From: Candidatus Zixiibacteriota bacterium
GTDB taxonomy: Bacteria; Zixibacteria; MSB-5A5; GN15; JAAZOE01
Direction: 5' to 3'
Assembly: GCA_036480375.1 (NCBI GenBank)
Contig: JAZGGI010000034.1
Span: 1-64,000 of the forward strand
DNA length: 64,000 nt
Positions 29,772-32,962 of the stretch are shown in pieces; the first letter of the stretch is position 1; every line of letters begins with the position of its first letter. The position numbers were made by a program, and so were the translations under genes. The notes below the pieces were generated by a model, which searched no databases, was not told the DNA's origin, and saw nothing but the letters and a program-made list of their open reading frames with translations.

Positions 29772-29851
29772 ATCCGCATAAAAAGAGATCAGGCCGGCCC
29801 AAATTAAGGGCCGTAATAGAAATTGAGCAAATACTTTTCGGAGATTAAATC

Positions 29852-31225
29852 ATGGCAAGAACATTCATTATCGCGATGTTCTCATTTTTTCTTGTCTGTG
29901 GAGGCGTGATTGCCGATGACTCCCGGTATGCCTCAGAAGTTTCTTACAACGAAACCAGGGATAAATCAACAGAAGTGCTTATTGCCAAAGATTCGCCGTC
30001 AAAAAAATCACTCAGCGCAGATTATGAAGGTACTCTTCGAGTTTATATAGTTGAACCGATTTCGCGCTGGAGAGACTACAATTACACATCATATAATTAT
30101 GGATTTCTCGGTTTTGCCATTTTTGATACGATATCAATGCCGTATCAAAGCAGTCTTACGGATACCATTGTGTGGAACGGAGCCTTACGCGGATATGGCG
30201 ATATATTTTATGCCAATATTAAGGTCGTGGCCGCTGTATTTAATGATAGCGGCGTTTTCAAAAATTCTGATCCTCAAACTGGCTATGGCCCGTTTAACGC
30301 CTTTTACGCCGATGCCGTTACGGGCGCCTATCCCGGTCAAACAGGAACAGATGGACCAAGTGGCAGCTATTCACACTCCGTCCTTGTCGAAGAGGGTACG
30401 GCCACCACGTGACCGACCTGCCCCTACGCTCGTGCAGCGTTACAGAATATAGAATCCGCTGGATATTATATCTATCACGTAGCTTTCGTCGTGAACAAGA
30501 ACAGTGCCGCCAGCAATTACATGAATGGTCTGTATAATCTTTATTGGACACCGACTATTTTCTTTGACGGGGGGCATGATTTTGTTGTCGGGACAAGCCA
30601 GTCAGCAATGCAATCTGATATTAACACAGCCGGTCAGCGAGAAGTTAATGACATCGATCTTTCGGTCAGTCTTGAGTGGCTTGGGGAATCGAATCTTGAA
30701 ATAATTGTCTCCGTTACCAACAACCAGTTCATTAACCAGACACCGGAAAGACCGATGGATATAACCGGACCGGACATCGGAATTACTTACGGAACTTATG
30801 ATATAGCAGCCCAGACATCCGATCCTGACGGGCAGGATCTTTGGTATAAGTTTGACTGGGGCGACGGCAACGTTTCCGATTGGACGGGGCCGGTAGCATC
30901 GGGTCAACAGGCGAACGGGGCTCACGCCTGGAATATGGCCGGGAGTTATAATTATCGTATCAAAGCTAAAGATGAAATGGATGCCGAGAGTTATTGGTCG
31001 CCGAATCAACAAATAACCGTTTACAATCGTGGTGACGCCAACAGTGATGACGGCGTGAGCGTTGGAGACGTTGTTTATATAATCAATCATGTCTTCAAAG
31101 GCGGTCCTCCCAGCGATCCCGAGGGAAGGGCCGACACGAATTGCGATAATAGTGTTAATGTGGGAGACGCGGTCTTTTTGATAAATCATATATTCAGACA
31201 AGGCGACCCGCCTCATTGTTTATAA
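29852..31225 (+). CDS. secreted thioredoxin-fold dockerin protein with in-frame UGA (candidate selenoprotein)
   Basis: Reading through the UGA at 30410-30412 gives one 457-residue protein. It has a signal peptide (FSFFLVCGGVIA), an N-terminal beta region, and a thioredoxin-like part where EEGTATT is followed by U187-P-T-C190-PYARAAL. The cis-proline segment TPTIFFDGG follows about 50 residues later, then an Ig/PKD-like stretch (WYKFDWGDGN) and two dockerin-like repeats (GDANSDDGVSVGDVVYIINH; NCDNSVNVGDAVFLINH). The UGA falls exactly on the first cysteine of the expected CxxC, and the frame stays open for 271 codons after it. A small hairpin follows at a distance suited to a bacterial SECIS. 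The alternative is a nonsense mutation from TGC to TGA. The start has GGAGA 6-7 bp upstream. The product would be a periplasmic or surface oxidoreductase. Confidence 0.75.
30413..30445 (+). promoter_or_regulatory. candidate bacterial SECIS hairpin
   Basis: After the UGA, ACGCT (30426-30430) pairs with AGCGT (30436-30440) around the loop CGTGC. CTG (30418-30420) and CAG (30443-30445) can extend the stem across an internal loop. The apical loop starts 18 nt after UGA and has G as its second base, as the usual bacterial SECIS description asks. The stem is short, and a competing CTGC/GCAG pairing exists. Confidence 0.45.
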
Positions 31226-31244: not shown

Positions 31245-31281
31245 TCAGGGATTGGTGTCGAGCCAATCCCTGATTCTTTTT
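31245..31281 (+). terminator. rho-independent terminator
   Basis: TCAGGGATTGG (31245-31255) pairs with CCAATCCCTGA (31263-31273) over 7 nt and is followed by TTCTTTTT. It shows that transcription runs through the whole UGA-containing gene. Confidence 0.9.
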
Positions 31282-31358: not shown

Positions 31359-31781
31359 ATGAAGTCGTTTTTGATAGTTATCATGGTAACTGGCCTAATT
31401 CAAATGGGAATCCCGATATATGCCGAAGATACAGTGGAAACGCTTTATATGGATTATGTCGATTTTGACGGTGATGGAATAAACGATAATATCCGAGACA
31501 ATGACGGAAACGGCATCCCGGATGATTTTGAAAGGAAGAGCTCTGAAAACAAAATTGCCCCGAGCATTCTTGGCCAATCATTAAATCAATCCCTAAATAA
31601 TAATGCCTCCATTGATTTGTACTTAAATAATCGTGAAGCTTTTGGCGCCCGCGAATTTCATGTCCTGTGCCATTCCAGTCATCGAGTAGGATTCACATCC
31701 GGTCAGGGATTCGGAGTCGGTAACGGTATTGGACTGGGTAACATTGCCAGCGGCTGCGCGGGAGGCGTATGCGGTATTTAG
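31359..31781 (+). CDS. small secreted calcium-repeat protein, glycine-rich C-terminus
   Basis: This 140-residue exported protein has a signal peptide ending near IPIYA. An acidic calcium-binding-type segment lies at about 34-57 (DFDGDGINDNIRDNDGNGIP), like thrombospondin type-3 or EF-hand-like loops. A polar asparagine-rich linker follows, then a glycine-rich tail with two cysteines (GLGNIASGCAGGVCGI). The ATG at 31359 is chosen because it directly precedes the signal sequence and has GGGATG upstream. Its last 13 bases overlap the start of the barrel gene, and its GCGGGAGGCGT codons supply that gene's ribosome site. The function is unknown; it may ride on or through the barrel. Confidence 0.7.
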   Translation: MKSFLIVIMVTGLIQMGIPIYAEDTVETLYMDYVDFDGDGINDNIRDNDGNGIPDDFERKSSENKIAPSILGQSLNQSLNNNASIDLYLNNREAFGAREFHVLCHSSHRVGFTSGQGFGVGNGIGLGNIASGCAGGVCGI

Positions 31782-32962
31782 CATCAATTCTCCCCGCTCT
31801 GCTTTCGATTTTTGTTTTTTTTCCTCTGGCTGTTCAGGCGCGAATTTCGTTCGATTTTTCCGCCAGTACCAAATCAAGCAGTAATCTGCTTCAGGACAGC
31901 AGTACGACCTACGATGCTTTTTCAATAACTTCCGCGACAGTTGAATATATTCCTCTTCCCTCACTGAAAGTATCTATTTCGGGAAGGCAAACTTATTACC
32001 GGGAAACAATTGGTCTGAGTAATATTTTTGGCAGAATTAACGTCACATACATTCCCCTATCTGAAAAATCACGATTTTCCCTTTACCTTAACGCCAACAT
32101 AAACGGACGAAAATATCATAATGATTTTAGTGGAGTCGATAATAATTTTGGCGGGGCAGTATTAATCGCAGGCTATCAGCTCAATCCCCGCCTCTATATT
32201 CGAGGCGGAATATCTTATCGCTCCACCGTTTATATCAATACCGACAGCGATTACAAGCGTGATCTTGATTTTATTCTGGGATTGAACGCTATTCTTCCGG
32301 GACAAACCAGTTTTGATTTTGAGGCGGGGTTCGGACGGACCAATTATTCTTTTAAAGACGCCAATTTAACAGGAGACGGATGGCCGTTATCCCGACCCGA
32401 TTTGCCCGAGCCTATTCCCTATGATGATATGTGGATAAAAGACATACCGGATACCAAAGACAACCTGTGGTTGTTGTATTTTTCGCCTCGCCTATCCCGT
32501 TCGCTCGGCAAGAAAAACGGCGTAAGTATAACTTACACTGCTCAGAATTTCCAAAATTACCGGGGCGGATTCCTGTGGGATATTTCAACCGGATACTTAT
32601 CTCCCTGGGCTACCGTCTGGGAAGGTCAAAGCGTGTTGGTTAATATTAAATCGTTTGCGATACGCAGACTAATTATAAACACCGGTTACGGCTATTGGAA
32701 TAAACAATTCCTGACTACTTCCAATCGTTACAACGAACAGGGTGATGATCGAACCTATTGGGAAGTACGAACCGAAGACAAACATCGAGAGGATATCGTC
32801 AATCGTTTCTTTTTTAGCGTTCAGTTACCGGTCAAATTAAACCATGAATATTTAATCGAACCGGTATTCAATATTGAACATTCCAATAATAACTCGAATA
32901 AACTCCTTTACGATTTCAATGATTATTCAATAACGACCGGCGTGTCATTAAGATTTAAGTAG
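31769..32962 (+). CDS. outer-membrane beta-barrel protein
   Basis: This 397-residue protein has a signal peptide (ILPALLSIFVFFPLAVQA). Alternating hydrophobic and polar strands run through the rest, for example FDFSASTKSSSNL, KVSISGRQTYYRE, RFSLYLNANING and LYIRGGISYRS. It ends in phenylalanine-X (TTGVSLRFK), as barrel proteins do. I cannot name a family. Overlap with the preceding calcium-repeat gene suggests the two products work together at the cell surface. It converges on gatD with a 25-bp gap and no evident terminator. Confidence 0.75.
   Translation: MRYLASILPALLSIFVFFPLAVQARISFDFSASTKSSSNLLQDSSTTYDAFSITSATVEYIPLPSLKVSISGRQTYYRETIGLSNIFGRINVTYIPLSEKSRFSLYLNANINGRKYHNDFSGVDNNFGGAVLIAGYQLNPRLYIRGGISYRSTVYINTDSDYKRDLDFILGLNAILPGQTSFDFEAGFGRTNYSFKDANLTGDGWPLSRPDLPEPIPYDDMWIKDIPDTKDNLWLLYFSPRLSRSLGKKNGVSITYTAQNFQNYRGGFLWDISTGYLSPWATVWEGQSVLVNIKSFAIRRLIINTGYGYWNKQFLTTSNRYNEQGDDRTYWEVRTEDKHREDIVNRFFFSVQLPVKLNHEYLIEPVFNIEHSNNNSNKLLYDFNDYSITTGVSLRFK

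Follow-up and report, generated by a model that had tools for sequence, protein, structure and literature searches.

The nearest known family to the protein considered here is the Omp28-related selenoprotein NF045500, which corresponds to GOS_C, described in 2008 as a thioredoxin-like (Trx-like) selenoprotein with a UxxC motif (PMC2398784) and listed in Table 1 of PMC13188914. A published model of bacterial SECIS (bSECIS) elements places the loop 16 to 37 nt after the UGA, with a G among the first two loop bases, a stem of 4 to 16 bp, and an energy of −7.5 kcal/mol or lower; some elements lie outside the model (PMC13188914). Here, we describe a gene within a 64-kb stretch of DNA (64,000 nucleotides, hereafter the window) whose product is related to this family but differs from it in domain order and content. 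The reading that we favor, with a probability of roughly 0.87, is that the product of the gene is a genuine bacterial selenoprotein: an exported redox enzyme that carries a dockerin and probably acts with a neighboring outer-membrane beta-barrel protein.

On the forward strand, a single frame leads from an ATG at 29852 to a TAA at 31223–31225 and is interrupted only by a TGA at 30410–30412. The earlier note on this DNA, made from the letters and their open reading frames, had described one frame broken solely by this codon; we arrive at the same structure, with a length of 457 codons. Chance does not account for this TGA: no other in-frame TGA of the 64 kb has an open frame to either side together with a UxxC motif, and the homologues described below have TGA or Cys at precisely its column. 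It is followed by U-P-T-C, TPTIFFDGG, a PKD-like part, and two dockerin repeats, all of which had been listed before and are recovered by domain searches: the dockerin match to PF00404 reached 30.9 bits (above the gathering score of 22.9), and the PKD_4 match had an E value of 3.4e-5. The protein scored below the cut-offs of the glutaredoxin and thioredoxin Pfam models PF00462 and PF00085. The terminator that had been placed after the gene was likewise found. The features of the locus are collected in the table below.

Features of the selenoprotein gene and its downstream neighbors (positions in the window)
Feature	Positions	Strand	Basis
Gene of the selenoprotein (457 aa when the TGA is translated as Sec)	29852..31225	+	frame, domain searches, model
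GGAG, likely ribosome binding site, 8 nt 5′ of the ATG	29840..29843	+	sequence reading
Predicted signal peptide, about residues 1–21 (MARTFIIAMFSFFLVCGGVIA)	29852..29914	+	inferred from sequence and model
Beta-sandwich strands ahead of the Trx part, residues 58–166	30023..30349	+	AlphaFold, pLDDT mostly >90
Trx-like domain, residues 177–261, with U187, C190, and cis-Pro P234	30380..30634	+	alignment, model, Foldseek
Sec codon TGA, U187 of U-P-T-C (codon 187)	30410..30412	+	TGA or TGC/TGT in all homologues
Cys190, resolving cysteine of UxxC, invariant in the alignment	30419..30421	+	homologue alignments
bSECIS-like hairpin ACGCU-CGUGC-AGCGU, 5 bp, 5-nt loop	30426..30440	+	folding and comparison
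PKD domain, residues 319–389	30806..31018	+	PKD_4; PDB 4xed
Type I dockerin, residues 394–447, two Ca-loop repeats	31031..31192	+	PF00404
Intrinsic terminator, then TTCTTTTT	31245..31273	+	sequence analysis
Small secreted protein, 140 aa from ATG 31359; alternative start TTG 31341 in the ORF list	31359..31781	+	sequence, homologues
Outer-membrane beta-barrel protein, conserved neighbor	31769..32962	+	model, Foldseek, genome comparison

In 60 relatives of the same order, 43 distinct long homologues were found (the first set). The column of codon 187 contained TGA in 29, TGC in 7, and TGT in 7 of them, and no other codon. A second set of 24 further genes, which includes other families of the class, contained 14 TGA and 10 Cys codons. 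In total, the 67 long homologues, all of one phylum, have TGA in 43 cases and TGC or TGT in 24, so that the comparison of homologues proposed in the earlier note returned Sec or Cys only. Protein identity is kept both upstream and downstream of the TGA. A tree of the first 43 homologues needs seven Sec/Cys changes, at least six of which are forced by well-supported branches. Several genomes contain tandem copies, some of which pair one Sec with one Cys copy. Of 133 genomes from the phylum, 51 contain the family as judged by a profile of the catalytic part, and the genes of the second set were read from these. In one Sec form (L103, 1100–2539), the motif is U-GSS-C, which exceeds UxxC by one residue. 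Another, on the minus strand of L094, has a second in-frame TGA at residue 293 of the long frame, inside the beta part; this codon may encode a second Sec or else reflect an error or the decay of the gene. A search of genome contigs with the single protein gave one match, to the PKD/dockerin part, in L020 (QMTJ01000173.1), a contig of a Thermoplasmata archaeon metagenome-assembled genome that encodes a relative of this C-terminal part.

The earlier note had tied its reading to the presence of selA, selB, selC, and selD, and the source genome holds the complete selenocysteine machinery. The genes selB (318.9 bits) and selA (493.7 bits) are neighbors on contig C7, and a tRNA-Sec with anticodon TCA scored 74.3 bits. 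The selD gene (383 bits; L018, G000:C26:126288-127211, minus strand) has an in-frame TGA of its own within SGAGUASK; as judged from its sequence, SelD is itself a selenoprotein. Among the 60 relatives, selB exceeded the cut-off in 53, and a strong selB fragment, if not more, is present in each of those that carry a Sec form.

The hairpin that had been proposed downstream of the UGA (ACGCT/AGCGT with loop CGTGC) is present at 30426–30440. Its loop begins 18 nt after the UGA, G is the second loop base, and position, G, and stem all agree with the bSECIS model. Its energy, −4.0 kcal/mol, misses the published limit of −7.5 kcal/mol (PMC13188914), so the suggested bSECIS check held for position and loop G, which are reproduced with covariation in the relatives, but not for energy. 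The limit is a threshold for searching and no defining property of selenoproteins; many relatives satisfy it. The 46-nt fold of the window sequence had an energy of −6.2 kcal/mol, no improvement over shuffled sequences (z of −0.54). Since the single-sequence fold is thus insignificant, comparative tests were used.

In the first set, 28 of 29 Sec forms have a hairpin whose first two loop bases include a G, mostly 17 to 23 nt after the UGA. The mean hairpin energy was −7.6 kcal/mol for Sec forms versus −1.6 kcal/mol for Cys forms (p = 3.7e-6); relative to synonymous recoding, the z values were −2.4 and −0.5, respectively (p = 5e-4). The second set gave a hairpin in all 14 Sec forms (Sec versus Cys, p = 9e-5). 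Overall, a hairpin fitting the model accompanies 42 of 43 Sec forms, and most Cys forms lack it or have a weak one. Stem pairing in the two main registers reached 90 and 87% of cells, compared to at most 57% in slid controls; 5 of 7 pairs in one register and 4 of 6 in the other had changed on both sides, and the covariation scores were far above those of slid controls. The second gene of L028, a Sec form, had no hairpin under the search rule used. In the L050 Sec form, the best hairpin is 34 nt downstream of the UGA, beyond the usual 17 to 23. Comparison of these sequences shows that selection maintains a SECIS-like element in the family.

The AlphaFold model of the selenoprotein (pLDDT of 88.8, pTM of 0.71) begins with a helix at residues 2–16 and a linker that is disordered at residues 21–54. 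The order of the domains that follow is beta, Trx, beta, with the Trx domain inserted in the sandwich. Foldseek matched the Trx part to solved thioredoxins with TMt values of about 0.6–0.68 and the PKD part to PDB 4xed with a TMt of 0.90. Only these two parts were informative, since searches with the full model were swamped by Ig/FN3-like and PKD matches. The strands at residues 58–166 correspond to A4 positions 3–111. Proteins encoded at L108–L111, in the same phylum, have the reverse order in a single chain, with A4 positions 120–245 preceding 3–111 and dockerin-like repeats at the end. Because the halves are exchanged relative to these Trx-first relatives, we infer that the window type arose by circular permutation of an Omp28-like fold, with the Trx domain placed inside the sandwich.

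Some members of the family match NF045500 weakly, and this, with the Omp28 similarity, is what points to the nearest known family. The window protein itself gave no match to NF045500 at E values up to 5, and its curated cut-off of 200 bits was reached in none of 130 genomes of the phylum. The location of its matches suggests that NF045500 is itself Trx-first. Other families of the same class contain Omp28-like proteins with a partial NF045500 match below the cut-off, with or without an in-frame TGA (L118–L121 and others).

Two genes on the same strand follow the selenoprotein gene. The small secreted protein has a Ca-loop, DFDGDGIND, and ends in SGCAGGVC. In the window's family, it is encoded between the selenoprotein and barrel genes, and its C-terminal GCxGGxC is invariant; as a guess, the selenoprotein might act on this Cys pair. 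The model of the barrel protein has a porin-like fold (pLDDT of 84.3). Its Foldseek matches were to generic porins (OprD, OmpG, and AlgE, with TM values of about 0.4–0.5), and we therefore name no function for it. No Pfam or NCBIfam family scored above its cut-off for the barrel, and a comparison with PHROGs gave no match. At the first-set loci, barrel homologues adjoin both Sec and Cys forms on the same strand, downstream in the window's family and upstream in the other families. The barrel was detected in 47 of the 51 genomes with the redox protein (Fisher p = 6e-20, uncorrected for the kinship of the genomes), and in 41 of these 47 the two lie at most 3 kb apart. A barrel homologue occurs without the redox protein in twelve genomes; four others have the redox domain without a barrel, three of them with the permuted form.

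A TGA inside a gene may have more trivial origins than Sec. It could be a nonsense mutation that truncates a pseudogene and leaves a decaying remnant downstream, as the formal split into a 186-codon ORF and a later ORF starting from GTG 30491 would allow. This is highly improbable: the identical TGA column occurs in 43 homologues, the downstream sequence is conserved together with the cis-Pro, PKD, and dockerin, and the only alternative codon is Cys. The hairpin, moreover, accompanies TGA and is mostly gone when the codon is Cys. A sequencing or assembly error, the true codon being TGC or TGG, is conceivable in a draft genome of 50 contigs. However, dozens of independent genomes have the TGA as well, which an error in this one genome would not explain; the hairpin follows the codon state, and TGG would abolish a catalytic Cys kept by all homologues. 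The chance of such an error is accordingly minimal. Nor is it credible that UGA specifies another amino acid, Trp or Cys, through a general change of code or read-through. UGA does encode Trp in some lineages, but the 35 main ORFs of the window end in TAA (15), TGA (10), and TAG (10), so UGA is not globally recoded; the homologues have Cys alone at this position, never Trp, and both the Sec machinery and SECIS-like hairpins are present. All three of these explanations were rejected. Comparison of the sequences indicates that Sec is almost certainly incorporated at UGA 187. The UGA would be decoded by the cell's own SelA, SelB, SelD, and tRNA-Sec, steered by the bSECIS hairpin just 3′ of it.

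With Sec first in U-P-x-C, a Trx fold, and the usual cis-proline, the protein is most likely a thiol-disulfide oxidoreductase, and its motif and fold make this chemistry very probable. Sec, the N-terminal attacking residue, would attack a disulfide or an oxidized substrate, and Cys190 would then resolve the product. Export is predicted from the N-terminal signal peptide, and the earlier proposal of an exported Sec-containing oxidoreductase is supported. Where the enzyme resides after export is a matter of weighing the dockerin. It may be a purely periplasmic Dsb/Omp28-like thiol-disulfide selenoprotein whose dockerin does not serve surface docking. These genomes abound in dockerin repeats, with at least 27 matches per genome in many of the relatives, and the repeats perhaps have a general sorting or folding role; a full-length DsbD in the source genome provides periplasmic electrons. 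Against this stand several proteins of the source genome with cohesins, known partners of type I dockerins, above the Pfam cut-off (one of them at C7:48486-48812), as well as the conserved outer-membrane barrel that adjoins the gene. We consider a purely periplasmic enzyme unlikely, though a serious candidate, and lean slightly toward surface docking via the dockerin. In the docked arrangement, the dockerin would bind one of the cell's own cohesins and hold the enzyme on the surface or in an extracellular complex, near the barrel. The selenoprotein probably works with the barrel, joined in the window's family by the small Cys-pair protein, and may draw electrons from the DsbD pathway; these partnerships and the electron source are the weakest steps of the scheme. 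Tentatively, a dockerin-tethered UxxC enzyme, an outer-membrane barrel, and a small exported Cys-pair protein might form a single conserved, selenium-dependent redox module beyond the cell membrane, moving electrons or thiols across the outer membrane or onto it.

Overall, the main proposal of the earlier note is upheld. Our analysis adds to it the Omp28-related fold with exchanged halves, the relationship to the known GOS_C/NF045500, and the barrel gene. The conserved outer-membrane barrel neighbor and, in the window's family, the small secreted Cys-pair protein are new. These results add to the prokaryotic selenoproteome an exported family that spans a phylum and is missed by current models; standard annotation is expected to cut the gene at the TGA. 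At least six Sec/Cys exchanges, with a hairpin nearly always present with Sec and mostly lost with Cys, amount to a natural experiment on Sec retention. The exchanged domain order, together with Trx-first relatives in the phylum, points to permutation of an Omp28-like fold, and with the barrel neighbor and dockerin the idea of selenium redox chemistry at the cell surface becomes testable. In the openly licensed literature, we came across no dockerin-bearing selenoprotein and, for selenoproteins with Omp28 or from Zixibacteria, no earlier description.

Omp28-related selenoproteins are already known, and it is the permuted branch bearing PKD and dockerin domains that lies outside the catalogue of 119 families. 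With GOS_C (NF045500), the present protein family shares the Trx-like fold and a UxxC motif with Sec first, and the nearest relatives of NF045500 in the class, in which an in-frame TGA also occurs, match the Trx half of the present family with an E value of 4.8e-14. Unlike NF045500, the present family has part of the beta-sandwich before the Trx domain, as well as a PKD domain and a dockerin. The likeness to the Omp28 family outer membrane lipoprotein NF033782 is a short one at the active site (residues 172–202; 15.9 bits compared to a cut-off of 150); these lipoproteins are without a dockerin, and we know of no Sec among them. Sec-containing thioredoxins and glutaredoxins are known selenoproteins. 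The UPxC active site, cis-Pro, and Trx fold are common to the window protein and the glutaredoxin and thioredoxin families, whereas the window protein is exported and multidomain, with its Trx part inserted in a beta-sandwich. Finally, as in cellulosome proteins with type I dockerins, two Ca-loop repeats occur together with cohesins in the same genome, but the dockerin of the window sits on a redox selenoprotein.
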